Shown: in pieces, positions 33,278 to 58,815 of the stretch
Numbering within the stretch: position 1 is the stretch's first letter
Layout of the letters: the number at the start of each line of letters is the position of its first letter
Origin: an uncultured Bacteroidales bacterium
Lineage (GTDB): Bacteria > Bacteroidota > Bacteroidia > Bacteroidales > Bacteroidaceae
Assembly: GCA_902801425.1 (NCBI GenBank)
Contig: CADCIQ010000008.1
Span: forward strand, 1 to 64,000
Direction of reading: 5' to 3'
DNA: 64,000 nucleotides
The notes under the pieces: model-generated
Seen by the model: the letters and a program-made list of their open reading frames with translations, nothing else
Databases searched by the model: none
Told to the model about the DNA's origin: nothing
Program-made: the position numbers and the translations under genes

Positions 33278-34279
33278 TTATTTCATATTCAAACACCACT
33301 TGGCCCTGTCTGTCAGGTAAGGTCTCAACCGATTGTAGGGTATGGTAAAGTGGAACGTGCCTGCCGCGAAACAACTGATGGCGTATGGCTGAAAAGAGAA
33401 GACCACGCCCTCTTCTGACAACCCTGGCTGTGGAAGTCTATGCAGACCTGTGGGTTTGTCATTCTCGTCCTTGACACACGCATATTCATCAATATCCGGC
33501 TCCCATTTCTGATAGTTCGGCGATTGCTTGGCCTCCTCTTTAAGCAGTGCCAGAATAGCTTCCATGCAGCCATCCCTAAACAAATATTTATAGTCAATCT
33601 CCTGTCCGTGGACATGGTCAAAGGATATCAGCCGTTCCGTATAATAGCCATGAGCACCACCACGGTAATCATGCTTAAATTGCTGGTAGGTAACGAACCT
33701 GCTGTTTTTTACATATGCACTCAGACACAAGGTAGAGAATAGCGATGATGGAATCTCCATCTCATTCAAACCGTAATCGCCCTTGACTATGGCAAAATAT
33801 ACGTCAGCGGCAAACTTGCATATTCGCTGTCGATTGTGAATGTCACCTTCATACCGCCAACCAGCATTAGTTCTTCTGGCATAGTTGATATAGATTGCAT
33901 TCATTGGAGGTAATTCGCCATCCATATTCCCAGAGTCCTCAATCTTCTCAACGAGCCATTTTGTAACCGCATCAGAATGCGCAATTGACCGTTTGGGAAA
34001 ATCAACAGATATATCATAGTTGACCCTCTCACAAAAGTCAGCTGACGCATTATAAGTGGTCGTAGTGAAACCTGGCAAGGAAACAGTGAGCTTTGGCAGC
34101 CCCTGCAGGCACTCTTCATCTTCGACATCTTCTGCAACATCCTCATATACCAAACTATCTTCCTCGGTGCAGTCAGTAGCAGGTTGGCTACTACTATTGC
34201 ACAAGGTCGGGCTAATGCTGAAAAATCCTCCAATCAACATCAGAGCCATAATTATGACTAAATATCTCATATACTTCAT
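33278..34279 (-). CDS. DUF3298/RsiV-like membrane-anchored protein
   Basis: A 333-residue protein with an N-terminal hydrophobic helix (about 5-24) and an acidic linker. Residues about 60-325 fit a DUF4163-DUF3298 arrangement: the characteristic YRGGAHGYYTERLISFD segment, then helix DGCMEAILALLKEEAKQ, and a final strand pair with VVFSFQPYAISCFAAGTF. In Bacillus the RsiV version binds lysozyme in the envelope. Here it may sense a cell-wall ligand, consistent with the degenerate penicillin-binding protein encoded just upstream with a 4-base overlap. Ligand unknown. Confidence 0.85.
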   Translation of the reverse strand: MKYMRYLVIIMALMLIGGFFSISPTLCNSSSQPATDCTEEDSLVYEDVAEDVEDEECLQGLPKLTVSLPGFTTTTYNASADFCERVNYDISVDFPKRSIAHSDAVTKWLVEKIEDSGNMDGELPPMNAIYINYARRTNAGWRYEGDIHNRQRICKFAADVYFAIVKGDYGLNEMEIPSSLFSTLCLSAYVKNSRFVTYQQFKHDYRGGAHGYYTERLISFDHVHGQEIDYKYLFRDGCMEAILALLKEEAKQSPNYQKWEPDIDEYACVKDENDKPTGLHRLPQPGLSEEGVVFSFQPYAISCFAAGTFHFTIPYNRLRPYLTDRAKWCLNMK

Positions 34280-35394: not shown

Positions 35395-37260
35395 CTATAC
35401 TCTCTTTACCTCGTCAACGCCATTGATGGCTGATATGTGTGATATAATAGTTTGGAGTTCTCCGAAAGAGTGTACTCCAAATGATATGTTACAGTTCACG
35501 ATGCTATCTGTGGTCTTTGTCGTCAGCGCATCTATTGACAAATGTAGTTCGTTGGTGATACAATTGATGATGTCGCTCAACAAATGATAACGATCAACAG
35601 CTAATATCTGTATGCTGACGGGATAGAGGATAGAAGCCTTTTCCTCATAGTCAACTGAAACTATGGAATCACCTCTTTGTGAAGCCAGCCCAATAGCTAC
35701 AGGACAGTTGCGTTTGTGGATGGTTATCGTGCCGTCTGCCTCCTTGAATCCAATAACCTCTTCACTGGGTATTGGATGACAATCGGGACAGAAATGGTAG
35801 ACGGATTTCTCCTGCTTTGCGAAATAACTCTTCAGAAATCTCTTTGCTTTGTAGGTGAGAACGTGGTCAGACCAGTCCTTCTGCGGTGTTACCTCTGGAT
35901 TAGTGACAATCTCTACGATGTCACCACGCTGCAGTTCAGCCTTGATGGAGGACAGCTGGCCATTGATACGAGCATAGTGGGCATGTTCTCCAATATGACT
36001 GTGAATTTCGAAAGCGAAATCCAATGCTGTAGCTTTCTTCGGAAGATTAATGGATTCGCCCTTGGGCGTAAAGACCATGATGTTATCGTTGTAGAATGCT
36101 GTCACCACATTGTCCATATAGCCGACCTCTTCTTGATGGAAGTCCAAATCGCGTAGTACCTTGCGGAACTTGTCAATCCACATGCGAACGGAATCCTCAC
36201 GACGCTCTGCTACAACACCTATCTGATTATTGCGTACCATACGCTCACTGCTAATGTGGACCTCCTCCCAGCTTCCGAACTCTGATAGCAGTTGGACATG
36301 ATAAGACTGATAGCCATTCTCCTTGGCACTATCGATGTACGATATGACAGAACAAGGTTTTTCGTTAAACACACTTGTCAAGCGCGAGTAGATTCTCAGA
36401 GCTATATCTTTTTCTTGACTCATGTCTTCACAAGAAAAGACAATCTCCACTACGTGACGGAACGGGATATGACTGAAATCGTCCCCCGTCTTCTGCATCT
36501 TACGCCAGATACTGTAAGGTGCACGGAACGAAACATGAACAAACACATTGCCAAACTCCTCGCCCAACACCATACGAATCTTGTCAGTGAAATTATGGAG
36601 TCTGCCTTCATGACAAAGTTCGTCACGCTGGAGCATTCTTGCTATCTCCTCATACTCATGGGGACAGCGATAGCGGAAACTCAGATTTTCCAACTCTATC
36701 TTGATAGGGTAAAGTCCAAGGCGGTTAGCCAGCGGAGCATAGAAGAAATCGGTCTCACCTGCACACTTCATCTGCTTATGGGCGGGCATACTTCCCAGCG
36801 TCCTCATATTGTGCAGACGGTCTGCCAACTTGATAAGCAGCGCACGGATGTCGTAATGGATAGAGTCAAGCATCTGTTTGTAGTTGTCCACTTGCTTCGA
36901 CATAGCGTAGTGCTCCTTACTCTGCTTTGTCAGAACACTCACTAAAAAAGCGACATCCTTTCCAAAACGTTTCTGAACATCGTCAATTGTGAACTTCGTG
37001 TCCTCTACCACATCATGAAGAAAAGCCGCAATAACTGGATTGGAACCCAACTCCAGTTCTCTTGCTACTATACAAGCTACCTCAACAGGATGGATGATAT
37101 AAGGTTCACCAGACTTTCTCTTCTGGTCAGCATGTGCCTTCTTGGCAAATTCAAAAGCCTCCTTGATACGTGTTACATCTTCTTGGGAGACTCTCTTTCC
37201 CATCACTGAGAAAACTCTCTCGGCTTTCTCCTGGATCATCTTGTCGTAATTCTGCATCAT
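35395..37260 (-). CDS. RelA/SpoT homolog with degenerate synthetase domain
   Basis: A 621-residue protein in the order HD hydrolase (about 30-190), synthetase-like region (about 235-345), TGS (about 380-450), ACT (about 545-621). The hydrolase motifs are good (His57 in HPVEVA, HDVVEDT with His82-Asp83, and DRLHNMRTL). The synthetase part is divergent: the Asp-containing strand before IR reads SHIPFRHVVEI, and the later signature reads EVHISSERM rather than EIQIRT. NGYQS remains. So (p)ppGpp hydrolysis is likely and synthesis unlikely. It is shorter than typical RSH enzymes (about 730). Only 48 bases separate it from the downstream lipoproteins, an unusual neighbourhood. Confidence 0.9.
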   Translation of the reverse strand: MMQNYDKMIQEKAERVFSVMGKRVSQEDVTRIKEAFEFAKKAHADQKRKSGEPYIIHPVEVACIVARELELGSNPVIAAFLHDVVEDTKFTIDDVQKRFGKDVAFLVSVLTKQSKEHYAMSKQVDNYKQMLDSIHYDIRALLIKLADRLHNMRTLGSMPAHKQMKCAGETDFFYAPLANRLGLYPIKIELENLSFRYRCPHEYEEIARMLQRDELCHEGRLHNFTDKIRMVLGEEFGNVFVHVSFRAPYSIWRKMQKTGDDFSHIPFRHVVEIVFSCEDMSQEKDIALRIYSRLTSVFNEKPCSVISYIDSAKENGYQSYHVQLLSEFGSWEEVHISSERMVRNNQIGVVAERREDSVRMWIDKFRKVLRDLDFHQEEVGYMDNVVTAFYNDNIMVFTPKGESINLPKKATALDFAFEIHSHIGEHAHYARINGQLSSIKAELQRGDIVEIVTNPEVTPQKDWSDHVLTYKAKRFLKSYFAKQEKSVYHFCPDCHPIPSEEVIGFKEADGTITIHKRNCPVAIGLASQRGDSIVSVDYEEKASILYPVSIQILAVDRYHLLSDIINCITNELHLSIDALTTKTTDSIVNCNISFGVHSFGELQTIISHISAINGVDEVKRV

Positions 37261-41147: not shown

Positions 41148-41528
41148 TTATCTGTCTAACTTCCTGTAATTCACTTTCGCTGCCAATACATTATTCAAAG
41201 CTATTTTCACCTGATAGGCCAGATCCTCTTCTTCCATGTAGAAGAACTCTGCTCCAGCTATAAGGACATCGTTAATCGTGTAGAGCTTCACCTGCTTCAT
41301 CTTTTCATTAAGTTTATGACACCTCATGATCACATCTGGGAAGTTCTCTTCTGTAACATCAGCAAAGTTTGGCAACAGGATTGAAACAAATCGGTCTTCC
41401 TCTGAACTGGGACAAATGTGTATTGAGTTCAATTGATACTTGATGACGATATGTTCACCATCATCCTCCAATACTTGGTACTTTCCGTCCTTGACGACTT
41501 TCTGAATCAGTTCATAGTTCTTGCTCAT
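41148..41528 (-). CDS. YbjN-like small protein
   Basis: A 126-residue protein with the alpha/beta pattern of YbjN/secretion-chaperone-like folds: a first helix (YELIQKVVKDG), strands (HIVIKYQLNSIHICP, FVSILLPNFADV), TEENFPDVIMRCHKLNEKM, then LIAGAEFFYMEEEDL. It resembles the product of the gene at 41528 in order of elements and in the TEEN..(V/L) segment. The stop of the upstream gene shares one base with its start. It is likely a chaperone or adaptor; the partner is unknown. Confidence 0.72.
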   Translation of the reverse strand: MSKNYELIQKVVKDGKYQVLEDDGEHIVIKYQLNSIHICPSSEEDRFVSILLPNFADVTEENFPDVIMRCHKLNEKMKQVKLYTINDVLIAGAEFFYMEEEDLAYQVKIALNNVLAAKVNYRKLDR

Positions 41529-41962
41529 TACTCATCCTCCTTCGTTTCGTTGCCATTCTCATCATCGTCCTCACTAGGAAGAGTATCATCTCCCTCGATC
41601 TTTCGATAGAACAGATAGTAGGTGGCCTTCAACAGCAGCATACCATGCTCTATAATCTGCTCCAGATAGTCCTCGCTATAAAGGCGGTACTCATAGAATA
41701 TCCACACATCATCACCATACACAATGGTCTTGCTGTACTTGATACTCATATTGGTATCGTTCACCACCTCCAAGACAAGTTCCTTGTTCTCTTCTGTTAC
41801 ATCATAGATGCCGGGAACGGCAAATCGCAGGAAACTCTCATCGTCATCAGGCATATAGAGGACGTTCAGTTCCTCGTACCTGAAGATAAACCCTAAATCG
41901 CCGGCATCTTCGAGTGTAAAACCAAGTTCTTCCAGTTTTGAAAATACTAATTCTTTGTTCAT
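41528..41962 (-). CDS. YbjN-like small protein
   Basis: A 144-residue protein, a diverged paralog of the next gene: helix (NKELVFSKLEELGF), strands (FIFRYEELNVLYMPDDD, FLRFAVPGIYDVTEEN), then VYGDDVWIFYEYRLYSEDY. It ends in an acidic tail (SEDDDENGNETKEDE), as seen in some chaperone-like proteins. It follows the pseudokinase-AAA+ gene by 64 bases and could be a partner of that ATPase (inference). Confidence 0.72.
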   Translation of the reverse strand: MNKELVFSKLEELGFTLEDAGDLGFIFRYEELNVLYMPDDDESFLRFAVPGIYDVTEENKELVLEVVNDTNMSIKYSKTIVYGDDVWIFYEYRLYSEDYLEQIIEHGMLLLKATYYLFYRKIEGDDTLPSEDDDENGNETKEDE

Positions 41963-42026: not shown

Positions 42027-43613
42027 TTATGCAACAAAACCGATTCTCGGACGTTCAGCATTGCTGCGCTTCACATACTCATCTCTCATTCGCTCGTACT
42101 TACGCACCTCATCACGAGTAACGGATGGTCTTGTCGCTTTCACTACGTTTCGAAGCATCGCCTCACTGATTTTAACTACAGCGTTATCCTCCATCTGTAT
42201 GCTAGCTTCAAAGGCATTCCTTGCGGTTTCTTTCACCATGTAAGATATATCACTCGACGTATATCCGTCCGTTATCCGGGCCAGTTCCTCCATATCGATA
42301 TCTCCTTCATGTGGACGTTTGCTAAGTTCAATCTCAAAGAGCTGCTTCCGACAATCCAAATCGGGCAATCCCACATACATAATAGAGTCGAGCCTCCCAT
42401 GACGAAGCAGAGCTGGCTCTATAGCATCCAATCGATTTGTAGTACCAATCACAAACACATTCTTCTCCACACAATCGTTCAGTTGCGTCAACCACTCTGC
42501 CACCTCGTCCGCTTGATGCTCATTCCCTTTGGCACTGCGGTCACCGCATAAGGCATCCATTTCATCGATTAGGAGAATACATCCCTTCTTATTCTGCTTG
42601 GCTTTGGCTTCGGCCTTCTGAAATAATTCTTTGATCAGACCCTGGGAGCCATGCAACCAAATACTACCCAAATCTGAAGGCTTTACAGAACAAAACGCGA
42701 GTCCACATTCTTCTGCCAGCTTCATACTGATATAGGTCTTACCTGTCCCTGGAGCTCCGTAGAACAGCATATTTGAAGGCTTAATGCCAAACTCTTTCGC
42801 CAGTTCCCGGTGAGAGACTATCTCCACGAAGTCACGGCGGAGTTTCTTCTTGATATCCTCCATGCCAGCAACAGCCTTGAAACCATCACCTACCCTCACT
42901 GACATATCCACATCTACATGTGGTTCCTGAACAGTACGCTGAGTATCTTGCATATCCTTCTTTATACTTTCGTTGCCTTTATTGCATACACCACTGCTTC
43001 TATCCGCAGCATCATCAAAACAACTGAAACGCTTGGGTCTCTCCATTCCCAGATAATCCATCAATGAGAATCCCATCTCCTCTGCATCTTTGAATCTTTT
43101 ACTTGCTTTCTTATCAATCGCTTTATAAATAAGCAAATCCAAACTTGCAGAGACATTAAGTTGCGGTTCAGTTCCCTTCACAACTTTCTGGATTTCACCC
43201 TTTGACATCGACTCGTCTATCTTATAGGGATAGAACCCCTGAACCATATAGGCAAGCAGCATTCCCATAGAGTAAACATCAGAGGCCGGTGCAAATCTGC
43301 CCAGGAAAGTCTCGGGAGCACGGAAGCATTGGTTAAGTACCCCCGTGTCGAAGTCGGGCTTCCCATTGCATGCCTGGTGAGGTGTGTCCTCACCAAGTAG
43401 TTTAATCTTCACCTCCTCACCATCTTTCTTCTGTATCATGACGGTATCTGGATTGATGTTAAAGTGTCCACCACCCTTGGTCTCATACTGCATCTTTTTG
43501 ATGATGATGATCAGCAGATAGACTGCATAAACGCAGTCTCTTTCTGCCAACACTTTCTTGTCAACAACTTCACGCAGGGTCACGTATTTGTCATCCAAGT
43601 TAAACATATTCAT
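42027..43613 (-). CDS. Pseudokinase C-lobe fused to an AAA+ ATPase
   Basis: A 528-residue fusion. Residues about 10-190 match the C-lobe of a Hanks kinase from helix D onward: an HRD-like loop reading HFNINPDT (50-57), a strand with KLLGEDT where DFG should be, FRAPETF (APE 99-101), SDVYSMGMLLAYM and KKASKRF. The N-lobe, G-loop and catalytic Asp are absent, so it cannot phosphorylate. Residues about 240-480 are a classic AAA+ domain: Walker A GAPGTGKT (286-293), Walker B ILLIDE (346-351), sensor TTNRLD, arginine finger in RHGRLD. It resembles FtsH/Cdc48/spastin-type unfoldases, with the pseudokinase as a likely substrate or regulator module. It follows the sigma-like gene by 18 bases. Confidence 0.9.
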   Translation of the reverse strand: MNMFNLDDKYVTLREVVDKKVLAERDCVYAVYLLIIIIKKMQYETKGGGHFNINPDTVMIQKKDGEEVKIKLLGEDTPHQACNGKPDFDTGVLNQCFRAPETFLGRFAPASDVYSMGMLLAYMVQGFYPYKIDESMSKGEIQKVVKGTEPQLNVSASLDLLIYKAIDKKASKRFKDAEEMGFSLMDYLGMERPKRFSCFDDAADRSSGVCNKGNESIKKDMQDTQRTVQEPHVDVDMSVRVGDGFKAVAGMEDIKKKLRRDFVEIVSHRELAKEFGIKPSNMLFYGAPGTGKTYISMKLAEECGLAFCSVKPSDLGSIWLHGSQGLIKELFQKAEAKAKQNKKGCILLIDEMDALCGDRSAKGNEHQADEVAEWLTQLNDCVEKNVFVIGTTNRLDAIEPALLRHGRLDSIMYVGLPDLDCRKQLFEIELSKRPHEGDIDMEELARITDGYTSSDISYMVKETARNAFEASIQMEDNAVVKISEAMLRNVVKATRPSVTRDEVRKYERMRDEYVKRSNAERPRIGFVA

Positions 43614-43631: not shown

Positions 43632-44714
43632 TTATGCTGCATGTGAATACCACCACTTTTTGATGGCCTTCTCAAATTTCTCGTTCAGGCGCGAATAGCG
43701 GGTATCAAGCCATCCACGGTCATGCTCAACTTTGTGTGCTACCTCTACAGGAGAAGTATTCTTAATGAAGCGCTCACACCAGATATAGCGGTCACGCTTG
43801 TTCTTCTTCTCCTTCTCTATGCGCTTTTGCTCATCCTTCTCATCGGCCTTATCAATCTTCTCAGGCCACAGTTTTGCAGAGAAGTCATACAAAAACTCCA
43901 CAGTCTTCTGACAAACCTCTTCGTCGGTGAGATTGGTACCAAACACATCGGAAAGAGGATTTACTCCTGTCTTGGCCTTGCACCACTCAGACAGATCAGC
44001 AACAAACTCTGAAGATACAGTAACCACATGCTTAGTTTTGTCACGGAGGACATTCTCTTCAGAGAACTCTACAGAACGCAGCAATGCGTCTTTCAGTTTG
44101 TTCTCGCCAGCCTTCTTGGCAGCTTCGAATTCTGCGGCATTCTTAATGTTCAACTGCTTCATAATCTGCTCCTCTGGAAGTCTGTCTACATAGATAGCAG
44201 TCAGCAAGCGATGATATTTGCTACCAACCATCAGGTCATCAATAATCATCTGACACATAGACGGAGATTGTGAACGCAGCGCAAGACGGGTATTGCCCAC
44301 AGTACGGGAGCGCACATCATCTATCAAATGTTCATCCACCAACCACTCCATGACCGCGTTACGCGCCACCTTCTTCAGCCATGCAAAGAAGGAACTCTCA
44401 CCAAGGTAGCTGTCGAGCGGAGCAAAGGACCCATCGGCCCATAGTGTCCGATAGAGAATAGTACTGAAGTCCTCAGGATTCACTTCTACCCCAAAGTCTC
44501 TCTTCAGATCGTAGATCATCTTCGAACGCAGAGGAGCAATCTGGCACGCTTTCTTCTTGCCCTTTTCGTTCGTCACCTCAGTGTCAAAGAAGAACTGGCG
44601 GCAATATGCCGAGCTGTTCTTCAGGTTCTTGATGAATTCATCACCTTCAGCCTTGTAGTTGTTCTTAGGCTGATTTGTCTCAAAACCGCAGTTGTTGTAA
44701 GTCTGATTGTCCAT
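43632..44714 (-). CDS. Sigma-70-like (ECF-type) protein
   Basis: A 360-residue protein. Residues about 80-130 resemble sigma region 2 (ILYRTLWADGSFAPLDSYLG, then SSFFAWLKKVARNAVMEWL). Residues about 155-215 resemble region 4, with a helix-turn-helix-like EEQIMKQLNIKNAAEFE and KAGENKLKDALL. A long charged C-terminal extension has no known match, which makes the protein larger than usual ECF factors (about 180). Related Prevotella proteins are annotated as sigma-70 family by my recollection. As first gene of its run it may direct expression of this or neighbouring operons. No anti-sigma gene is obvious, unless the pseudokinase-ATPase plays that part. Confidence 0.72.
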   Translation of the reverse strand: MDNQTYNNCGFETNQPKNNYKAEGDEFIKNLKNSSAYCRQFFFDTEVTNEKGKKKACQIAPLRSKMIYDLKRDFGVEVNPEDFSTILYRTLWADGSFAPLDSYLGESSFFAWLKKVARNAVMEWLVDEHLIDDVRSRTVGNTRLALRSQSPSMCQMIIDDLMVGSKYHRLLTAIYVDRLPEEQIMKQLNIKNAAEFEAAKKAGENKLKDALLRSVEFSEENVLRDKTKHVVTVSSEFVADLSEWCKAKTGVNPLSDVFGTNLTDEEVCQKTVEFLYDFSAKLWPEKIDKADEKDEQKRIEKEKKNKRDRYIWCERFIKNTSPVEVAHKVEHDRGWLDTRYSRLNEKFEKAIKKWWYSHAA

Positions 44715-44903: not shown

Positions 44904-46199
44904 CTATATTGTAAGTTCAATCAAAGTACGAGGTATCGAGAGTTTGTTTTTGAGCACATACAGGTGCTCATTAGGGTCTGTAAGAATAAACGGAGCAGGC
45001 AACTCACGCAGTTTCTCACAACCGTCGCTGACGGCCATGCGGATATCTGAATAGCAGTGCTTAATCTGCGAGGGCATGAGATTACCATTTTCATCCTTAC
45101 CCCGGCCTATTAGTTTGTCAAAACGTGAATCACCCTCGTCTTGTCCATATACAGCCAGATACAAGCTGTTGAACTCACTTCTGTAATCCTCAATATTCAG
45201 AGAGTCCACTTTGTCATGCTCATACTTATCTATTATATATATAAGGTATAGGATGAATGCTTCTCTTCGTCCAAAATGCACATGTATCTGGTCGTAGTTC
45301 TTGTGCAGAAACAGCCGGTAGTTACCATCTGCCCTATTATTGGGGTCGACCTCACCCACATACTTTATTTCCAAGGTCATCGTTGACTCCTGGGCCAATA
45401 TCTTCGGATTGGTGGTCTTGCAGAAGGTTTCCAACTGCTTCTTCGACATTTTGGTCAGCACACGCTTCAGCGATTCAATGTCCAGACTGCTCAGGACATA
45501 GTTCAGTTCAGCTTCTGCCTTTTCATCCCTATTACGACGAAATTTGTTGATGTTCTCCATCATTCGGTCTATCATCGCGCTCTTCTTCTGGTGAGTGATA
45601 ATGCCATCAATTTTCAAGGCCTCCCTGATCTTCGGCAGCGATGCCCGCATACCGAAAGTGGGATGGAACATATCGCTGGCTATAGAGACAAAGTAGTTCT
45701 TCCAGAACTTCTCTGACTTGGCTGCCTCCTTCACACCATCACAAAACACATCTGGCGTATCTATGGCAAAATCCTTCAGCAGTTCGTTAACGCTATGCTT
45801 ACTGATACGCTCTGACGTATAGAGCATCATGGCTAAGTCGCTATACAACTTCTCCCGCTCCGTTTTGAGCAAAAGATACTGCTTATCTGCCTTGCTTGGG
45901 GTGTAGAGCGACATAACAAACTGACACTGCTCTTCCTTGATAGCACTGTCAAGCGTTGGATGGTTATCCAGCACGGGCATCTTCTCCAGTACCTCGAAAT
46001 CATATTTATTCAGCAGTTGTTTCTCACCCATAGAAGCCAGAAGTTTCTCAAACACCTCCTTACCTTCAACGGCAATGGCGTTCACATTCGACGGCAGTGC
46101 ATACAGACAGCAGTCTGCCAACTGTCCGACAGCATACTCTTCTTTCACCAGTCGCCCAACTACTGGCACATCTATCGGGCTATTGTCCATCACATTCAT
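44904..46199 (-). CDS. Unknown soluble protein, end of the GTPase/AAA+ operon
   Basis: A 431-residue protein with no signal peptide. The N-terminal half is helical (LKTEREKLYSDLAMMLYTSE, MIDRMMENINKFRRNRDEK). The second half has FGRREAFILYLIYIIDKYEHD and DIRAMVSDGCEKLRE-like helices. No enzyme motif is recognised. It begins MNVMD, as does the gene at 46196, and overlaps that gene's stop by 4 bases. It is likely a partner of the HExxH protein. Confidence 0.75.
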   Translation of the reverse strand: MNVMDNSPIDVPVVGRLVKEEYAVGQLADCCLYALPSNVNAIAVEGKEVFEKLLASMGEKQLLNKYDFEVLEKMPVLDNHPTLDSAIKEEQCQFVMSLYTPSKADKQYLLLKTEREKLYSDLAMMLYTSERISKHSVNELLKDFAIDTPDVFCDGVKEAAKSEKFWKNYFVSIASDMFHPTFGMRASLPKIREALKIDGIITHQKKSAMIDRMMENINKFRRNRDEKAEAELNYVLSSLDIESLKRVLTKMSKKQLETFCKTTNPKILAQESTMTLEIKYVGEVDPNNRADGNYRLFLHKNYDQIHVHFGRREAFILYLIYIIDKYEHDKVDSLNIEDYRSEFNSLYLAVYGQDEGDSRFDKLIGRGKDENGNLMPSQIKHCYSDIRMAVSDGCEKLRELPAPFILTDPNEHLYVLKNKLSIPRTLIELTI

Positions 46200-47082: not shown

Positions 47083-47757
47083 TCAGAATCTGAAATATTT
47101 TCTTTGTTCTCTCTGTATGTCTAGCAGTATCTGAAGTCTGTATTTGTCAAACTCCGTTATCAGATTCTGTATGGTCAGAGGTATGCCTTGCTGCTGCATC
47201 TCTTTGACATGATAATTACCGTATCTGATAAACATTGCCCTCAGCGTACCTTCTGGATGGGTCTGGCTTCCCGATGTAGTTATCAATCCCATTGTTACCT
47301 TCGACACGTCCATATTCCACAGTCCTGCTCTTACTCCCATAAAATAGTCACAACACAACTCTTGTTCCCATGCACCATTGTTTGGTCCATAGAACTGAGT
47401 ATTCTGAAGTACGCGATGTGCACATTCATGGGTCATCACGAGGCTGAAGGCTTCTTTCGTGTCCACTTTCATGTCAACGAGCTGTTGCATGTTGAAACAT
47501 AGCACATCGTCATAATAGCTTCCCCTGTCCCAATTTACGAACATTGTCTGACCACCAGGAGTATTAGTGAGGTCTTGAATCATTCGTGGTTGTGGTATAT
47601 TGAAGAAGTCACATGCCGATTTGATGGCATCCCTGATGTCATCTTGTGTCAGTCCAAAACGGCTGAATCTCCTGCTCAAAGCAAGAAATTCATCCATTGT
47701 CGGACGCTTGTTGAACGCCTTGAAGATAGGACTATTGAAGAAATCAGATGCACTCAT
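47083..47757 (-). CDS. HExxH putative zinc metallopeptidase, paralog
   Basis: A 224-residue soluble protein with HECAH (His110, Glu111, His114) in a helix, and WEQELCCDYFMGVRAG (Glu133 or Asp137) as candidate third ligand at the same distance as in the neighbour. The shared THPxGxLR segment follows. It lies 44 bases before the second peptidase gene. A pair of such enzymes next to AAA+ ATPases suggests regulated proteolysis, but substrates are unknown. The N-terminus is helical (SASDFFNSPIFKAFN). Confidence 0.82.
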   Translation of the reverse strand: MSASDFFNSPIFKAFNKRPTMDEFLALSRRFSRFGLTQDDIRDAIKSACDFFNIPQPRMIQDLTNTPGGQTMFVNWDRGSYYDDVLCFNMQQLVDMKVDTKEAFSLVMTHECAHRVLQNTQFYGPNNGAWEQELCCDYFMGVRAGLWNMDVSKVTMGLITTSGSQTHPEGTLRAMFIRYGNYHVKEMQQQGIPLTIQNLITEFDKYRLQILLDIQREQRKYFRF

Positions 47758-47778
47758 AAGTCACTACGCCATCTTCTG

Positions 47779-47940
47779 TCATCCTTCTACATTAGGTGTG
47801 TATTCCTTCCGTCGCGGGAACTGTTCTCTGTCTAAATGTGCTTTGAACGTTGCCAGATAGTACACTGTTTCACGAAAGTCAAGCTTTATCAACACCTCTT
47901 CTTTGACCTTGTCAATGTATTGCTGTACTAATTTGTGCAT
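47779..47940 (-). CDS. Small 53-residue protein
   Basis: An open frame from ATG at 47940 to TGA at 47779. The product begins MHKLVQQYIDKVKEEVLIK, is helical and charged, continues with FRETVYYLATFKAHLDREQF and ends RRKEYTPNVEG. No signal peptide or membrane helix. It fits the gap between its neighbours (10 and 21 bases) as a member of the operon. Function unknown; a small adaptor is possible. Confidence 0.65.
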   Translation of the reverse strand: MHKLVQQYIDKVKEEVLIKLDFRETVYYLATFKAHLDREQFPRRKEYTPNVEG

Positions 47941-47950
47941 AACTATAATA

Positions 47951-48337
47951 CTATGTGTTCTTATTCTTTGTTCTCGTTTTTTTCATAAACTGCAAAATAT
48001 TATGGAAAAACAATCTTGTTGATTCCTTTATTGTATTCCACTGTTCTCTACTATTAGAAATAATTTCATACCTATTGTAATATGCATGTAGCAACATAAA
48101 AACTCCAAGGGAAATATAGAATAAAACCAGAACAACTAAAATCCAAGCAACTATTATCCCAATAATAACAAGCCAATAAATCCATATATCCCTATGAGTA
48201 GCATCAATGGATGAGATTAGCCACTTGTAAAATTTACAAGAAACAACAAGTAATGAAATTAAAGTTGCTATACTTAACCATATCGTTGTTTTTTTATTTA
48301 TCTTATACTGCTGCATTAAAAAACACAAAACAAACAA
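47951..48337 (-). CDS. Small membrane protein with two to three helices
   Basis: A 128-residue protein; Met8 (48316) is an alternative start that removes a hydrophobic stub. Hydrophobic helices lie at about 19-37 and 51-82 (WLSIATLISLLVVS, IYWLVIIGIIVAWILVVLVL). The C-terminus is basic (KKTRTKNKNT), expected in the cytoplasm. AT-rich in codon use compared with the flanking genes. Function unknown. Confidence 0.75.
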   Translation of the reverse strand: MFVLCFLMQQYKINKKTTIWLSIATLISLLVVSCKFYKWLISSIDATHRDIWIYWLVIIGIIVAWILVVLVLFYISLGVFMLLHAYYNRYEIISNSREQWNTIKESTRLFFHNILQFMKKTRTKNKNT

Positions 48338-48375
48338 AAAACTTTATCTAATCATTTATTATTCCCAGAGAATTG

Positions 48376-48579
48376 CTATTTCGTAGATTTCGAAGCATCA
48401 CGTTTATACTCATCCCCTTTTGAGTGATAACTCTTAGCCCGAGCTGCATGGTCTTTGGCAGCAGACATATCTCCCTTACGCACTGCTTCTTGGGAGCGTT
48501 TAAGATGCCACTGCTCCCAATCATAATTCTCCTTGGCTTTTTTCAGGTTCCAAGCCCTGTCGTTAACAAATATTCCCAT
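48376..48579 (-). CDS. Small helical charged protein
   Basis: A 67-residue protein without signal peptide. Almost entirely charged helix with repeated Lys, Ala, Glu, Trp and His (NLKKAKENYDWEQWHLKRSQ, AKDHAARAKSYHSKGDEYK), recalling the coiled-coil protein at 7371 in composition, though that one is secreted. It is preceded by a purine-rich stretch and sits between two membrane-protein genes. Function unknown. Confidence 0.65.
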   Translation of the reverse strand: MGIFVNDRAWNLKKAKENYDWEQWHLKRSQEAVRKGDMSAAKDHAARAKSYHSKGDEYKRDASKSTK

Positions 48580-48591
48580 AATTCATAATTT

Positions 48592-49251
48592 TTAGTTCCA
48601 AAATTTCCACCATTTATTTTCGTCTTCCAACTTCTTTCTTAATTCTCTCCTCATAAACTCATTTTCTTCTTCAAGTTCTCTTGCTTTCCTTGCAGCAACT
48701 CTAGCCCTAGATTGATCCCATCGCCAGTTGTTAATATTAATTGCAACAATAAACATAACAACAACACCTAAGACTATAGTACCTAAACTTGCAGTAAATA
48801 GCCATACATCTTGAAGACCACTGTTTTTCCAAACAAAAAGAGCACTGAGTATAGTGAGGAGTCCAATTAGCCAATAATAAAAATTTAATATTAGAAAAAG
48901 GCCAACAACTACCAAGACACCAAAACATACAGTCTTGGTTATTGGCAAAATTTCTTGCAAATCATAAGATTTCCAGAGCAAATATGTACACAAAGCTGCA
49001 TTTATTAACCTAAAGAACCAAAAACCCTTTTTAAACATCCTATCATAATCATATATATTAAAACGTTTCGTGTATGCATCATCCGCATAACTGATTTCTC
49101 CTATTATACTTATTGTTCCACCAAGTATGAAGATAAAAAGTATCAGCCAATCAACCCATGTAAGCGGAATTGGTTGCACACATAATTCATATATTAGCAT
49201 ACATGCAAAAAGCATTATGAAGATTATTCTAAGCACAAGTTGTGTCCACAT
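48592..49251 (-). CDS. Polytopic membrane protein with cytoplasmic coiled coil
   Basis: A 219-residue protein with five or six hydrophobic helices (IIFIMLFACMLIYEL, WLILFIFILGGTISII, VCFGVLVVVGLFLILNFYYW, LFTASLGTIVLGVVVMFIVA among them) followed by a charged coiled-coil tail (about 180-215, ending NKWWKFWN). Function unknown. It may be the membrane anchor of the operon's soluble ATPase or GTPases, by position only. Confidence 0.8.
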   Translation of the reverse strand: MWTQLVLRIIFIMLFACMLIYELCVQPIPLTWVDWLILFIFILGGTISIIGEISYADDAYTKRFNIYDYDRMFKKGFWFFRLINAALCTYLLWKSYDLQEILPITKTVCFGVLVVVGLFLILNFYYWLIGLLTILSALFVWKNSGLQDVWLFTASLGTIVLGVVVMFIVAININNWRWDQSRARVAARKARELEEENEFMRRELRKKLEDENKWWKFWN

Positions 49252-49272
49252 ATGTCTTTCTTGTTTTAGAAA

Positions 49273-49485
49273 TTATAACTCATTGAGCATCTTCTTGTAC
49301 ACTCTTCTTTCTGCATCCGAAGAAGCATTACGACATTTTTGTTCTAATGCCCTCTTTAATTTATTATTGTTAGCTTCTGTTGCATAAATATCAGCTAACT
49401 CTTTCCCCTCTTTTATGGCTTTTTTCGCTAATTTCCTTTGGAGAAAACTAAGAATATCAAAGTCAAAATCAAAATCGTCAAACAT
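49273..49485 (-). CDS. Small helical protein
   Basis: A 70-residue protein that starts with an acidic aromatic repeat (MFDDFDFDFDILSFLQ), then a Lys/Ala/Glu helix (KLAKKAIKEGKELADIYATE) and a basic tail. It lies 11 bases after the CbbX-type ATPase gene. The acidic N-terminus and helical body could suit an adaptor for that ATPase (inference). Function unknown. Confidence 0.65.
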   Translation of the reverse strand: MFDDFDFDFDILSFLQRKLAKKAIKEGKELADIYATEANNNKLKRALEQKCRNASSDAERRVYKKMLNEL

Positions 49486-49496
49486 GATGTTAAAAT

Positions 49497-50831
49497 TTAT
49501 ATATTAATAATATCTTCCTTTTCAATCATACTAAGCTGTTCTCTTGTAGCTCTTGACATGTGTGCCAAACGGTCTGCCTGTTTTTGAATAACCTTTTCAA
49601 AGAGGTTTCTCACAAAACGAGCATTACCGAATTTGGAGTCTTTCTTTGATACTTCTGAATATATAATATGGAATACGGCCTCATGACCTTCTTTGGTAAT
49701 CTGGTATTGTGCCTTCTTCAGATAGAACAAGAATATTTCCATCAACTCCAATGGGTCATAATCATCGAAATGAATATAGCGATTAAAACGTGATTGCAAA
49801 CCTGGATTCATGTCAATAAATTGTTTTATCTCATTGTCGTAACCAGCCAAAATGACAACCAAGCGTTCGCGGTCATCCTCCATCCGTTTTAAAAGAGTAG
49901 CTATGGCCTCGGCGCCAAAATCGTTTTTGTCACCCTGTGCTAAAGTGTATGCCTCGTCAATAAAGAGAACACCATCAAGTGCTTCATCAATCTTTGCGTT
50001 AGTCTTTGGAGCAGTTTGGCCAACATATTCTCCAACAAGGTCGGAACGCTGAACTTCTACCAGATGCCCCTTCTTCAAAATGCCAAGATCTTTATAAATT
50101 CCCGCAACAATTCTAGCCACAGTAGTCTTGCCTGTACCAGGACTGCCAGAAAATACGCAATGGTAGGACACCGAAGTCGTTTTCAATCCATTCTGTTGGC
50201 GCTGCTTTTGGACAACTACAAAATTTCGCAATGATTCTATTTCCTTTTTTACCCTGCTCAATCCTATCAAGGAGTTCAGTTCTGCCATATAATCTTCTTT
50301 TTTGCTAAAGATGGGACTATCAGGCTTCAAATAATAGCAACTATTGTCTTTGTTCCTAAAACGATCTATTAAGTTTGCGCTCTCACCGTTACGGTTTTGA
50401 GAACCAACAATTTCTTGAAGTATGTCCTGAGCCCATAAACACCCACTACCTGCAGAACGATTCAAATATTCTATTGCAGTGTTCCTATCTTGGGGCGTAG
50501 TATAGCCATAATAATATAGTTCGCCAATTGCTGCTAAAGCAAATATATTCCCTTTATTACCTTCTTGTTCTAATTGGCGAATTGCTTGCGTATTGACTAA
50601 TGCGCTCTTGGTAATATACGAATCTCCTTTATTCACCCTTGTTATATATAACAAAAGGTTCTGTGCCCAAATGACATTATTATTTGCTGCCTGTTGCAAT
50701 AAATTAAGCCCTTGTTGCTTAGAAGGCTTTATGTATCTGCCCTCATAAAACAGGATACCCATCTCTGTCATTGCAAATGGGTCTCCATTTTGGCATGCTT
50801 GCCAAATCTGATTTACAGATTCTTGTCTCAT
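49497..50831 (-). CDS. Sel1-repeat protein fused to a CbbX/EccA-type AAA+ ATPase
   Basis: A 444-residue protein. Residues about 1-140 hold Sel1-type repeats (GDPFAMTEMGILFYEGRYIK, GNIFALAAIGELYYYGYTT, then helices with ACNRSAGSG-like turns). Residues about 180-440 are a CbxX/CfqX-type AAA+ domain: LIGLSRVKKEIESL, Walker A GSPGTGKT (229-236), Walker B GVLFIDEAYTLA (Asp292, Glu293), sensor ILAGYDNEIKQF, arginine in PGLQSRFNRYI. Relatives remodel RuBisCO (CbbX) or serve ESX secretion (EccA). Here the context is signalling, not either of those. Probably a remodelling ATPase for a partner in this operon. Confidence 0.92.
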   Translation of the reverse strand: MRQESVNQIWQACQNGDPFAMTEMGILFYEGRYIKPSKQQGLNLLQQAANNNVIWAQNLLLYITRVNKGDSYITKSALVNTQAIRQLEQEGNKGNIFALAAIGELYYYGYTTPQDRNTAIEYLNRSAGSGCLWAQDILQEIVGSQNRNGESANLIDRFRNKDNSCYYLKPDSPIFSKKEDYMAELNSLIGLSRVKKEIESLRNFVVVQKQRQQNGLKTTSVSYHCVFSGSPGTGKTTVARIVAGIYKDLGILKKGHLVEVQRSDLVGEYVGQTAPKTNAKIDEALDGVLFIDEAYTLAQGDKNDFGAEAIATLLKRMEDDRERLVVILAGYDNEIKQFIDMNPGLQSRFNRYIHFDDYDPLELMEIFLFYLKKAQYQITKEGHEAVFHIIYSEVSKKDSKFGNARFVRNLFEKVIQKQADRLAHMSRATREQLSMIEKEDIINI

Positions 50832-50834
50832 ATA

Positions 50835-51563
50835 TTACATCATGTTCTCTAATTGTTGAAGTTCCGATTGTAGGTGTATAAGTCTAGTCTTGTACTGATG
50901 TATCAAGCTTACATGAGAACTATATACAGTTCGTGACGAAATGTCAGTTCCTCTCACTTGCATCATTCTTCTATCCCATTCTGCTTGTTCAACTTTAGAT
51001 TGCAATTCTACAATCTCTTCTCGTATAGCATTAATTTTGCGCTGGCGGTTCTGATTGGAATTTAGACTTTGGGTATTCCCCATAACTTGATGCGCAAGAT
51101 TCGAACCATTTCGGATTGGTACATAACATGTCTGACATACTCCTGTACCATTACAAATGGCACATTGTGAATAAGAATGTATTTGCTTGTGATAAATTGT
51201 TCCACTGCCATTGCATTCTTTGCATCTTTGAGTACCATGACAATCCGGGCATTCACCACTCCCATAGACCTTTACATCTACATCCCAACGCTTTTGTATC
51301 TTATCATTTTTGCCAAGAATTGCAAAGTAATCACCGATACACCAATCCCAACCACAAGAATCAAAATCAAACTTGAATGATTGCTTGGCCTTCAATGTAA
51401 TTTGTCTTCGAATTTGTGGGGGCTGTTGGCCAGAGCCATCAATTATGGCACAATCAAAGGTCTCACTTTGGAATATGTTATCACAATACAGGGTGAAAGT
51501 AATTGCCTTTCTCCCTCCTTGGTGCAACGAGTTAAACCAATTGAAAGTCCCTTTTAATGCCAT
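50835..51563 (-). CDS. DnaJ-type zinc-finger protein without J domain, with coiled coil
   Basis: A 242-residue protein. Residues 1-100 form a beta-rich domain (MALKGTFNWFNSL..., FDFDSCGWDWCIGDYFAILG) shared with the next gene. Residues about 105-147 hold four CxxC pairs in DnaJ style (CPDCHG, CKECNGSG, CAICNGTG, CQTC). A C-terminal coiled coil follows (NQNRQRKINAIREEIVELQS onward). The zinc finger of DnaJ binds unfolded protein; without the J domain the protein could not call DnaK in the usual manner. It may serve as adaptor for the AAA+ ATPase encoded 3 bases downstream. Confidence 0.88.
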   Translation of the reverse strand: MALKGTFNWFNSLHQGGRKAITFTLYCDNIFQSETFDCAIIDGSGQQPPQIRRQITLKAKQSFKFDFDSCGWDWCIGDYFAILGKNDKIQKRWDVDVKVYGSGECPDCHGTQRCKECNGSGTIYHKQIHSYSQCAICNGTGVCQTCYVPIRNGSNLAHQVMGNTQSLNSNQNRQRKINAIREEIVELQSKVEQAEWDRRMMQVRGTDISSRTVYSSHVSLIHQYKTRLIHLQSELQQLENMM

Positions 51564-51571
51564 AGATCATC

Positions 51572-52075
51572 CTACTTAAATCCGTTCCCGATTCCTGTTG
51601 GCGGTCCACCAAAGCTACCAGCTCTTCTTGGTATATCACAAGTGTGACATGTGCCGGTGCCTCCACAAGCGTCACAAGTTTTATACTCCCACATTCTGCC
51701 TCGTGGATATATAAAGCCTTGCCCGTTACATTTCTTACATTTCAGAGTCCCGTGACATTCTGGGCATTCACCTGGTCTATATTCTTTCAGATTAAGTTGC
51801 CATTTCTTAACAACCTTATCATTCTTGCCTAAGATTGCAAAATAGTCATGCTGACACCATTGCCAATCTACCGTGTCAAAATCAAATCGATAAGAATGAC
51901 CAGGCTTGAAAGTTTGCCCTCTAAAATAGAATGGCTGCTGATTATACTCATCGCTAATCATACAATCCACTGTTTCACTCAGGAGCAGATTGGTACATTT
52001 TAAAACAAATGAATGAAATCTAACTCCTGAGAGACGTGTGGATGTAGCAAGTTCAAACTTTCCTTTAAAGCCCAT
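51572..52075 (-). CDS. DnaJ-type zinc-finger protein, short paralog
   Basis: A 167-residue paralog of the preceding protein in map order: the same N-terminal domain (FDFDTVDWQWCQHDYFAILG) and four CxxC pairs (CPECHG, CKKCNGQG, CDACGGTG, CHTC), then a short Gly-rich tail in place of the coiled coil. Duplication in tandem, 8 bases apart. Probably a variant adaptor for the same partner. Confidence 0.88.
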   Translation of the reverse strand: MGFKGKFELATSTRLSGVRFHSFVLKCTNLLLSETVDCMISDEYNQQPFYFRGQTFKPGHSYRFDFDTVDWQWCQHDYFAILGKNDKVVKKWQLNLKEYRPGECPECHGTLKCKKCNGQGFIYPRGRMWEYKTCDACGGTGTCHTCDIPRRAGSFGGPPTGIGNGFK

Positions 52076-52078
52076 TTG

Positions 52079-52456
52079 TCATTGAACTGTTTTAGAAGGA
52101 TCACTGTTTATAGGAGTTTTCAATGCATCAATTACCGTTTTCCCTTTTTCGTACAGATATTCAATGGCATTTATTGCATAAGCAAGTCCTTTCTGTACCC
52201 ACTCACCAACAGATGTTATAAGTTTATCGAAGAATACACTAACTCTGCTAAAGACATCAGGAAGGACTTCTTTAAGCCAATCGCGAGCACCCTCCAAAAT
52301 ACTCTTGATGATGTCTGGGTCATTGGGGGACACATCTTTTCCTTCTTTACTAATGACATTGCTCGCACTCATGTCAATACTAACAGCTGCTTTAATCTGA
52401 TCTTCACTCCACTCAGGATGAAGTTTCTTGTAATGTTCATATCTCTCGTTATACAT
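52079..52456 (-). CDS. Tandem small paralog 3 (HPEWSxxQ family)
   Basis: A 125-residue protein. The N-terminus has the motif KLHPEWSEDQIKAAVSIDM. The middle is ILEGARDWLKEVLPDVFSRV, then long amphipathic helices (VFFDKLITSVGEWVQKGLA, AINAIEYLYEKGKTVIDALK). It lacks a signal peptide. It shares order and motif with the next two genes upstream, so the three form a tandem family. The helices could bind or enter membranes. Function unknown. Confidence 0.78.
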   Translation of the reverse strand: MYNERYEHYKKLHPEWSEDQIKAAVSIDMSASNVISKEGKDVSPNDPDIIKSILEGARDWLKEVLPDVFSRVSVFFDKLITSVGEWVQKGLAYAINAIEYLYEKGKTVIDALKTPINSDPSKTVQ

Positions 52457-52467
52457 AGCAAAATAAT

Positions 52468-52797
52468 TTAGTAATCGTAATAATCGTTTCCAAAATGACG
52501 CGCTATCAATTTAAAGGCAAATTTTAGACCATTTTTTGCCCAATCGGGGAGACTGTCAATGAGTTCTGTAAAGAAGTCTGCCACTTTCATGAATACGTCT
52601 GGTAATACCTCAAATAACCATTCTTTGGCCTTCTCTAGAACAATGCGGATTATTTCCTCCGTTGGATTGACATCGGGACCACCTGAAGTTACTGCATCTG
52701 CACCACTAATCATAATGCTAACTTGAGTCCAAATTTGCTCGTCTGACCAATCTGGATGTTTAGCTTTTAATTCTCTGAAAAGATCATCTTTTGACAT
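52468..52797 (-). CDS. Tandem small paralog 2 (HPEWSxxQ family)
   Basis: A 109-residue protein, closest to the product of 52079: AKHPDWSDEQIWTQVSIMI, then IVLEKAKEWLFEVLPDVFMK and VADFFTELIDSLPDWAKNGL. Strong amphipathic helices near the C-terminus (LKFAFKLIARHFG). No signal peptide. 11 and 3 bases separate it from its neighbours. Function unknown. Confidence 0.78.
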   Translation of the reverse strand: MSKDDLFRELKAKHPDWSDEQIWTQVSIMISGADAVTSGGPDVNPTEEIIRIVLEKAKEWLFEVLPDVFMKVADFFTELIDSLPDWAKNGLKFAFKLIARHFGNDYYDY

Positions 52798-52800
52798 AAT

Positions 52801-53139
52801 CTACAAATTTTTAAAGAAATTAACTATTTCGTTCCAAGTAATTGATACGGCTGTTGAGATACGGTTATAAACGCCCTTAAACGTGTCTCTAACTTGAGGG
52901 TATATTGACGGAAAGTTTGTTTCCATATAGTGATCAGCCTGTTTAACAGTCACCATAAATATCTCTTTTATCTCCTCCCAAGATGTTTTTTCCTTGGGTG
53001 GTTTAAAGCCTGTCGTCACAATAGCATAGGTTAATGCTTGTTGATGAGTCCATTCGGGGTTATGTTTCATCCCCATATTATACATATCCTTCGCTTCTTG
53101 CGAGAGCTTATTGTATTCTTCTAATTCATTTGCTGTCAT
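52801..53139 (-). CDS. Tandem small paralog 1 (HPEWSxxQ family, diverged)
   Basis: A 112-residue protein, the most diverged of the three: KHNPEWTHQQALTYAIVTTG, then IKEIFMVTVKQADHYMETNF, PSIYPQVRDTFKGVYNRIS and VSITWNEIVNFFKNL. The placement of the motif before a first helix and amphipathic helices after is the same. It lies 12 bases after the GTPase gene, suggesting that the family works with the GTPases. Confidence 0.75.
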   Translation of the reverse strand: MTANELEEYNKLSQEAKDMYNMGMKHNPEWTHQQALTYAIVTTGFKPPKEKTSWEEIKEIFMVTVKQADHYMETNFPSIYPQVRDTFKGVYNRISTAVSITWNEIVNFFKNL

Positions 53140-53151
53140 AGCACAAATATG

Positions 53152-54003
53152 TTAGTTTGTATTGCTTTTTCTAAAAAGATCTAGACCTTTAACGCCAGTC
53201 CAAATCCACCCTCGCTTACCTGCTTTAGTTACAACTTTTAGAAATTCACCAAGATTGTAATTATAGACCGCAGAGTAAAATACTACTTGTTCTGGCTTTA
53301 ATGCCGTTGGAGAGTTTAGAAGAACAAGATTCTCAGAAATCAATTTTTCAAAAATGTCTGCTCTTTTTTTCAAAATGCATTCATATAATTTATTTGTTGG
53401 TCTATTTTCTATGCCATCCCACATAAGTTCAGGGTCATCAGGGTCAATTGTTTCTCCTATCGTATCCACTTTATTAACTGCAATAATCAAATTATCTTTT
53501 ATTGAGCTTTCGTTACAGATTGGCAAAACAACTTCCTTTAAAATTTTACAATCATCACCAACATTTCTGGTGTTTGCTTTGATTATATATATAATGACAT
53601 CACATGTAGGAAGAATCTCTTTGTACATCTCTTCATAAACTTGGTCTTTTTTCCTGCTCTGAAGAAGCCCAGGCATATCATAAATAGACAAGTTAAATCC
53701 GTCGCCCATTGGGAATATTTTCTCAATAATTTCTGTTGTTCCCTCTTCTATGTCTGAGGTAGGAAGATTTAAACCAAAAACAGCGTTTAAGGTTGATGAT
53801 TTACCAACGCCTGCTTGTCCTATTATTGCTACCTTAAACGGCCTACCTGTAATTTCTTCATTCAGTTTACCAAAGACTTTCTCTTTGTCTTCTTTAGAAA
53901 CTGCAGCCGCTTTAAAAATTGCGGCAAATAGCTTCTCTATCATAGAGGAATAGTTAGACAATTCCTCCTGATCAACTTCTTCTATAATTATTCTTTTATC
54001 CAT
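53152..54003 (-). CDS. Era/Der-like small GTPase with helical N-terminus
   Basis: A 283-residue protein. The N-terminal helix (about 15-52) precedes a TRAFAC-class GTPase domain: G1 GQAGVGKSS (62-70), G2 threonine in EEGTTE, G3 DMPG (109-112), G4 NKVD (177-180), and a G5-like YSA. The C-terminus is basic (KAGKRGWIWTGVKGLDLF) and might touch the membrane. Bacterial GTPases of this sort near small helical partners appear in stress or conflict systems, but no direct homolog is known to me. Encoded with a second GTPase 6 bases upstream. Confidence 0.9.
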   Translation of the reverse strand: MDKRIIIEEVDQEELSNYSSMIEKLFAAIFKAAAVSKEDKEKVFGKLNEEITGRPFKVAIIGQAGVGKSSTLNAVFGLNLPTSDIEEGTTEIIEKIFPMGDGFNLSIYDMPGLLQSRKKDQVYEEMYKEILPTCDVIIYIIKANTRNVGDDCKILKEVVLPICNESSIKDNLIIAVNKVDTIGETIDPDDPELMWDGIENRPTNKLYECILKKRADIFEKLISENLVLLNSPTALKPEQVVFYSAVYNYNLGEFLKVVTKAGKRGWIWTGVKGLDLFRKSNTN

Positions 54004-58119: not shown

Positions 58120-58815
58120 TTATTTGTTATAGACTAAGATTCCTGAATAGTTGTCTTTCGAGAATTTCTCACACAGGAAGAGTATAACATCTGTGACATC
58201 TTTTGGTGACTTATCATCCATCAATCTGTCTCTAAGTATGTCTGGATTGACATAGGAACTAACGCCATCCGTACAAAGAAAGAGTCTGTCACCAGGCTGT
58301 AAGTCGAACTGTCTTATCTCCACATCGGCATTCTGGCGGTGATAGGAGAAAAAACTTCGGTTGATATAATCACCCCACACACTTTGTTCGATATGGTCTT
58401 CTGTACGATAGACAATACCCACATTGGGCCGAAGGAGGTAACAACGACTATCGCCACAATGAGCAATAGTTACTTTGCCATTATAGATAGCAGCAAGTAC
58501 CAATGTGGTGCCCATCTCTACTTTGTGGAGGACATCGGCTTTTGCATCTAACGTTTCTGATGCCAGACGGAAAGCTGTCTGTAATACTGGCTCTACACCA
58601 TCGGCAAAGGATGCTTGTTTCCAGTACTCACATATAGTCGTGCCAACAAGGTGACTGGCCACCTCGCCCATGGCGTGGCCACCCATCCCGTCACACACCA
58701 CAAAAAGATAGCGGCCATCGTCAGGATCACTTACGTATTGGCAATAGTCTTCATTATTGCGTCTATTTCCTTGCTCGGAGAAACTTGTATAAGTTATTTT
58801 GTTCATATCGTGCAA
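58120..58815 (-). CDS. PP2C-type Ser/Thr phosphatase, soluble
   Basis: A 231-residue soluble phosphatase; Met4 (58806) is an alternative start. Motifs are NRRNNEDYCQYV, VCDGMGGHAMGE, HCGDSRCYLL, LCTDGVSSYV and the closing FSKDNYSGILV with its Asp-Asn pair, so all metal ligands are present. It lacks the membrane helix found in the PP2Cs at 17921 and 23548. It is not next to a kinase gene, so it may act on substrates of the kinases in the main operon (inference). Confidence 0.94.
   Translation of the reverse strand: MHDMNKITYTSFSEQGNRRNNEDYCQYVSDPDDGRYLFVVCDGMGGHAMGEVASHLVGTTICEYWKQASFADGVEPVLQTAFRLASETLDAKADVLHKVEMGTTLVLAAIYNGKVTIAHCGDSRCYLLRPNVGIVYRTEDHIEQSVWGDYINRSFFSYHRQNADVEIRQFDLQPGDRLFLCTDGVSSYVNPDILRDRLMDDKSPKDVTDVILFLCEKFSKDNYSGILVYNK

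Follow-up and report, generated by a model that had tools for sequence, protein, structure and literature searches.

A kinase C-lobe without its N-lobe joined to a Cdc48-like AAA+ domain in a Bacteroidales bacterium

The bacterial pseudokinases EssB/YukC and MviN keep both lobes of the kinase fold and are membrane proteins, not AAA+ motors, and pseudokinases are, to our knowledge, usually retained as whole two-lobed folds. EssB is described as a catalytically degenerate kinase fold used as a scaffold in the available part of the bacterial pseudokinase review PMC12599244, and the term AAA is absent from the main text of that review. Kinase domains with disrupted catalytic residues have been reported from the MoxR-vWA ternary conflict systems as well, according to the accessible part of PMC7159879. 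The window analysed here, a stretch of 64,000 nucleotides from an uncultured Bacteroidales bacterium, carries on the minus strand at 42027..43613 a gene for a protein of 528 aa, composed of a pseudokinase C-lobe, a linker and a Cdc48-like AAA+ domain. This anatomy, in which an intact AAA+ domain is fused to a C-lobe whose N-lobe is missing, had been proposed in the initial annotation and was confirmed by sequence, motifs and a confident fold prediction.

The kinase part covers residues 7-189 (43047..43595; this and the other parts of the gene are on the minus strand). Structure prediction of the N-terminal part, called for in the initial annotation, returned with confidence a kinase C-lobe fold which starts at the hinge and has no N-lobe. 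The N-lobe is truly absent from the protein. In frame before the ATG stands TAA GAG AAG, the stop being three codons upstream, and 18 bases separate the start from the end of the preceding gene. The N-terminus, M...KYVTLREVV, aligns to ...FFDFMTLREAV... of the full-length relative P0092, and the window protein thus begins at the inter-lobe hinge. PF00069 matches only from profile position 121; the Gly loop and VAIK Lys that belong to the N-lobe of a whole domain are missing, and the APE Glu, helix-F Asp and final Arg of the C-lobe are present. The loss of the catalytic Asp and of DFG, which had been read from the sequence earlier, stood as well: where an active Ser/Thr kinase has HRD, the loop Asn and DFG, the protein reads HFN, T and GED, and its degenerate catalytic loop, GGGHFNINPDTV, occupies residues 47-58 (43440..43475). 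Alignment A1, of 39 sequences, shows no variation at G47-G49, N52, G84, P100, E101, Y114 and R173, and the window C-lobe is 50-89% identical to the 19 aligned C-lobe-only relatives. A GGG ahead of the lost catalytic loop (43440-43475) stays invariant in the 39 sequences despite the lost catalysis. Mean majority conservation is 0.61 for the C-lobe vs 0.77 for the AAA+ part, a lower value that would fit a recognition part. The two domains are connected by a linker, residues 195-240 (42894..43031), with low model confidence for 195-230. The full-length predicted structure has a pTM of 0.54, so that the relative placement of C-lobe and AAA+ is not given by the model.

The AAA+ module, residues 241-480 (42174..42893), resembles p97/Cdc48 D2 and includes a lid. 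It scores 108.9 bits with PF00004 (cut-off 21.2) and 27.4 bits with AAA_lid_3 (cut-off 27.2), and it has the Walker A, Walker B, arginine-finger region and lid of the classic-clade AAA+ proteins. Both Walker motifs are intact, GAPGTGKT at residues 286-293 (42735..42758) and ILLIDEMD at residues 346-353 (42555..42578), and there is an aromatic pore loop. The latter is IWLHG at residues 318-322 (42648..42662), to which we assign the pore-loop role by presumed analogy with the p97 D2 pore loop; in alignment A1 W319 is nearly invariant, and H321 and G322 are invariant. The protein is not Cdc48/p97 proper, with an N domain and two AAA+ domains, as it has a single AAA+ domain plus a kinase C-lobe, and it reaches 171 bits with the NCBIfam CDC48 model TIGR01243 against a cut-off of 803. 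It also stays below the cut-off of the NCBIfam anti-phage IetA/IteA model NF042959 (91 bits vs 510). At the C-terminus, residues 524-526 (42036..42044) form an IGF tail motif; IGF followed by 1-3 final residues is found in 103/118 listed relatives, and a partner might dock on this tail. The tail is visible in many distant relatives too. In the bacterium's own genome (assembly about 87% complete) no second close AAA+ copy was found, other matches being at 2.1e-10 or weaker.

Relatives were taken from the best 120 of 856 homologues, among which the 520-539 aa bin holds 78, while 28 have at least 580 aa. Motifs were counted in 118 proteins, namely the window protein, its counterpart at locus L189 and 116 proteins from these best 120, leaving out P0001 (the window's own cluster) and P0085, P0111 and P0112 (partial or short rows). 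Among these 118 listed relatives, 89 are C-lobe-only and 29 carry a whole, catalytically degenerate kinase fold. The HRD Asp occurs in 0/89 of the C-lobe-only proteins, the loop Asn in 2/89 and a DFG-column Asp in 24/89, with the next Gly in none; the APE Glu, the helix-F Asp and the final Arg are each present in 89/89. Judged by these motifs, the C-lobe-only proteins are a conserved subfamily, in which the scaffold is retained and the catalytic residues are lost. In the whole-fold relatives the HRD Asp is changed to Asn in 29/29, and the VAIK Lys is kept in 4/29. Distant relatives from whole genomes appear more kinase-like, with the VAIK Lys in 34 of 37 alignment rows; the motif counts by locus cover AAA+ proteins longer than 450 aa in which Walker A was recognised. 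Those linked to Hsp70 have Glu in place of the HRD Asp in 14/17 (Asp in 1/17) and the DFG Asp in 15/17, and the remaining distant relatives (n = 36) have the HRD Asp in 27/36 and the DFG Asp in 30/36. Such distant Bacteroidota proteins carry a fuller kinase domain and are encoded mostly beside YbjN-like chaperones or Hsp70. At ten loci the matching AAA+ type is encoded as a protein of 322-406 aa that lacks the kinase part, which argues that the proposed docking domain is dispensable for the core activity. As far as the alignments tell, the window protein is a reduced form of a wider Bacteroidota kinase-AAA+ family with whole-fold members. Since relatives still carry the whole kinase fold, the kinase has likely been pared down to a handle that would hold proteins for the motor, and we infer that the whole fold came before the half fold.

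Directly downstream of the gene lies YbjNa (41528..41962, minus strand), a YbjN-like or TY-chaperone-like protein and recurrent partner, and next to it YbjNb (41148..41528, minus strand), a second YbjN-like protein. YbjNa gives no PF10722 match and YbjNb scores 18.8 bits, below the cut-off of 22; the partner at locus L013, a YbjNa homologue (E 1.3e-17), scores 25.2 against the same cut-off, and the two partners at L189 give no YbjN match. Directly upstream is a gene recurrent in the operon for a divergent sigma-70/ECF-like protein (43632..44714, minus strand; TIGR02937 E 2.9e-5, 23.8 bits, cut-off 42.9); one of its metagenome relatives, P0359, is named as that of a Bacteroidaceae bacterium. 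A 431-aa protein with no Pfam match at E ≤ 0.1 is encoded at 44904..46199 (minus strand) and has a homologue in the equivalent place at L189. This locus, from genome G526 of another genus of the family, repeats the window's order (431-like, sigma-like, kinase-AAA+, YbjNa, YbjNb) with a homologous sigma-like gene, and its kinase-AAA+ protein keeps the N-lobe; the two operons are a natural with/without pair for this lobe. Among 65 loci, in which L013 and L044 have identical AAA+ parts, 29 have a YbjN-like gene immediately downstream of the AAA+ gene and 4 have one immediately upstream of it; Hsp70 lies at most three genes upstream at 17 loci, and at 12 no gene of either kind occurs within three genes. 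With a same-sized longest contig as a proxy for linkage, not a proof, YbjNa clusters accompanied 16 of the 120 listed kinase-AAA+ clusters (75 of the 120 rows already gave the 16) and sigma-like clusters 20 of the 120, compared with 0-2 for either when sizes were shifted by 1 to 10. YbjN-like chaperone genes are the nearest recurrent neighbours of the kinase-AAA+ family.

Hsp70 of 830-857 aa was seen within three genes at L016, L064, L070, L075-L077, L080-L083, L200, L202 and L204-L208. A TerB-like gene follows in the Hsp70-type loci (PF05099 19.8 bits vs cut-off 24.4 at L207; annotated as TerB in Haliscomenobacter hydrossis), and no description of the Hsp70 plus kinase-AAA+ arrangement was found in the literature searched. 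A stringent-response RSH gene adjoins the AAA+/YbjN cassette in G132, G309, G369 and G114 (L211-L212, L215, L217-L219). The row in G309 reads RSH (SpoT-like), kinase-free AAA+, YbjNa, YbjNb and a homologue of the window's 33278-34279, and the window's own RSH gene (35395-37260) is about 5 kb from the half-kinase AAA+ gene. Genes at 47083-55340 of the window code for a CbxX-like AAA+ protein with Sel1 repeats, for Cys-rich proteins and for two GTPases, and their homologues stand in similar order near a kinase-free AAA+ gene in G261 (L228).

The histories of the two domains were compared in trees from quick searches, of which the free C-lobe search fell 52 log-likelihood units short of a better tree. 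The C-lobe tree comprised 88 rows after thinning of near-copies, P0043 and P0053 having failed the motif search, and the AAA+ tree was built without 13 loci and without P0022 and P0033, in which Walker A is present but escaped a narrow pattern. A single clade of C-lobe-only forms was not rejected by the AU test for the C-lobe (p 0.985), whereas it was rejected for the AAA+ part (p 3e-8; 44 of 91 rows). Two separate losses of the N-lobe, a first reading of the C-lobe tree, were dropped when the AU test found a better one-clade tree. Individual pairs differ in the same manner: P0054 and P0096 agree to 92% over the C-lobe and to 59% over AAA+, whereas for P0087 (half) and P0092 (whole) the values are 48% for the C-lobe and 88% for AAA+. 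The conflict makes the N-domain behave as a swappable cartridge and marks the linker at 195-240 as the boundary between two domains with diverging histories. N-domains thus appear to have been exchanged between AAA+ parts, and the simplest reading would be one loss of the N-lobe, then N-domain exchange, the breakpoint lying close to the poorly ordered linker. Over 17 linked pairs, YbjNa distances give a partial r of 0.64 with AAA+ and -0.15 with the C-lobe; linkage alone can explain this covariation, which is therefore taken as a sign of exchange and not of binding. Distances of the sigma-like neighbour show partial r of 0.40 with the C-lobe vs 0.18 with AAA+, a possible lead to this protein as client, although gene linkage would explain its covariation equally well.

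Matches at E ≤ 1e-40 were found in 44/398 genomes of the genus, 34/301 of the family and 7/395 of the phylum sample, the own genome included in each, and these counts rest on an AAA+-based E-value with all architectures mixed. A named member is WP_013769014.1 of H. hydrossis (Bacteroidota), encoded on plasmid pHALHY02 and annotated as an AAA family ATPase, which by its sequence has a whole kinase fold. The row at L249:3406-12990 of this plasmid consists of a CFI-box protein, a septum-initiator-like protein, Hsp70, the kinase-AAA+ protein and TerB, with BREX adjacent. A single-protein scan of genome contigs gave no relative; a scan with alignment A1 gave at least 319, and the 80 kept all match from residue 195 onward and are thus ordinary AAA+ proteins without a kinase part. 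Viral contigs gave at least 18 matches, to the AAA+ part only among the matches listed, and plasmids 7 records at E ≤ 1e-30, one extending into the kinase part.

We consider it somewhat probable that the half-kinase is a docking domain which brings clients or adaptors to the Cdc48-like motor, and that the motor unfolds them and passes them to YbjN-like chaperones. The half-kinase would play the role of the p97 N domain, its C-lobe docking client proteins or their adaptors; the AAA+ ring would thread and unfold what is docked, and the neighbouring YbjN-like chaperones would receive the threaded clients. On this reading a surface of the C-lobe still mattered but nucleotide binding did not, and the N-lobe could therefore be lost. 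We infer the ring, the threading and a protein-binding C-lobe from knowledge of the families, and the hand-over to YbjN-like chaperones is suggested by the relatives. As basis for docking we count the anatomy, the missing catalytic residues, the invariance of the C-lobe scaffold, the YbjN linkage and the conflicting histories. A bolder version, which we regard as possible but on balance doubtful, is that the kinase lost catalysis and then its ATP-binding lobe in one cut at the hinge, the C-lobe now being the swapped, client-selecting cartridge of AAA+-YbjN units. Dozens of proteins with the C-lobe alone, cut at the hinge and mounted on a motor, are a natural lobe-deletion experiment, through which one can ask directly if a kinase C-lobe suffices by itself as a protein-binding module. 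Related operons supply whole kinase-like, whole pseudokinase, half-kinase and kinase-free AAA+ proteins and so permit a stepwise comparison. If docking is true, this is a bacterial Cdc48-type machine with a recognition domain unlike that of p97.

According to the initial annotation, the half-kinase could receive kinase substrates or mimic a kinase and so draw PP2C and FHA partners to the unfoldase. Kinases, PP2C and FHA genes do occur within one window, and the linkage to PP2C held in part. Orthologues (E ≤ 1e-50) of the PP2C phosphatase at 58120..58815 (minus strand) co-occur with the window's cassette type: 8 of the 11 genomes whose AAA+/YbjN cassettes are window-type or kinase-free have one, vs 0 of the 10 genomes that carry the other kinase-AAA+ type (Fisher p 0.001; chosen genomes, with grouping and E threshold set post hoc). 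Of nine such places, six are within 15 kb of the AAA+ gene (2.7 kb in G526 and some 2.4 kb in G132) and the other three are on different contigs. PP2C, however, also stands beside AAA+ proteins without a kinase part (G132, G608, G488), and of the supposed FHA and kinase linkage almost nothing was left: the FHA2 protein (21329-22879) has a match in 3/21 chosen genomes (G000, G280, G065), and in 65 loci of a few to 26 kb each, the window's own slice being 34-60 kb with its kinase/FHA cluster outside, one neighbour (L048) resembled the window's kinases and none its FHA proteins. With the window's FHA genes some 16-23 kb away from the half-kinase AAA+ gene, we regard kinase mimicry as unlikely. 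The phosphatase may belong with the cassette, and the kinase/FHA cluster at 7.8-26 kb seems to be a separate phospho-signalling neighbour. The stretch 7833-26240 comprises three kinases, each a full Pfam match, along with two PP2Cs, four FHA proteins of which one bears a trypsin-like domain, BACON-domain proteins and an outer-membrane barrel. Beside the PP2C, at 58879-59355, is a low-molecular-weight tyrosine phosphatase, whose homologues in G608 and G488 lie close to the AAA+ cassette.

The wider family might instead be a stress- or conflict-response chaperone machine, anti-phage or for damage, with the window copy as an offshoot, a view compatible with docking but in our judgement rather improbable. 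WP_013769014.1 lies between Hsp70 and TerB and adjoins BREX brxL (PADLOC-confirmed) and pglZ, yet this BREX neighbour is a single case. Occurrence is patchy within the genus (44/398), and PADLOC matched the window protein to IetA (2.9e-25, AAA+ part only), TRIP13 and the kinase PD-T4-6, for which AAA+ and kinase domains in common would be explanation enough; seven other proteins of the operon region have no PADLOC match, the IteA model stays far below its cut-off, and the place beside RSH in G309, G132, G369 and G114 is a housekeeping one. A role of the half-kinase within the AAA+ ring itself, in its assembly or regulation, as oligomer contact, plug or autoinhibitor, we hold to be a poor prospect. 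Scaffold residues invariant in 89/89, the confidently predicted fold and the direct fusion to the motor agree with it, and the pseudokinase domain of EssB/YukC serves scaffolding and dimerisation in the part of PMC12599244 at hand. Ten AAA+ relatives do without the half-kinase, however, the stretch 195-230 between the domains is poorly predicted, and N-domains sitting on rather different AAA+ parts argue against a tightly fitted interface. A decaying, functionless kinase tail carried by a useful motor is hardly credible: half of the fold is missing along with the catalytic residues, and the same ten loci lack the kinase part altogether, but the scaffold residues persist in every one of the 89 C-lobe-only proteins, as do the residues invariant in the 39 sequences and the C-lobe identity to the 19 relatives given above.

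The likeness of the protein to Cdc48/p97 (VCP) and archaeal VAT lies in the D2-type AAA+ domain, but it has one AAA+ domain and not two, with a kinase C-lobe in the place of the N-domain, and it lacks what we take to be the p97-type N domain fold. Compared with PknB-type bacterial Ser/Thr kinases, it is without the N-lobe, the HRD Asp and the DFG, and therefore has no catalytic centre. That no described family has this layout, as the initial annotation had supposed, agrees with our search of the open-licence literature, in which a half-kinase as AAA+ N-domain was not found (including the available parts of PMC7159879, PMC9503650, PMC12839542 and PMC12599244). With the MoxR-vWA systems it has in common the theme of an AAA+ ATPase and a peptide-binding co-chaperone, but the kinase domains there, as described in the part of PMC7159879 available, are effectors, fused to vWA or separately encoded, and not AAA+ N-domains; no MoxR or vWA Pfam match occurred among the window proteins scanned (E ≤ 0.1 for some, E ≤ 0.001 for others). 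The YbjN/TY-Chap peptide-binding chaperones (PMC9503650, available in part) are approached by way of the L013 partner, which passes Pfam YbjN and to which YbjNa is homologous, whereas the window's two proteins are below Pfam cut-offs and their peptide binding is putative. The EssB/YukC and MviN pseudokinases are alike in their degenerate kinase fold, with use as a scaffold for EssB (PMC12599244, available part). Cdc48-like AAA+ motors are already known, and the half-kinase N-domain would be the new element.
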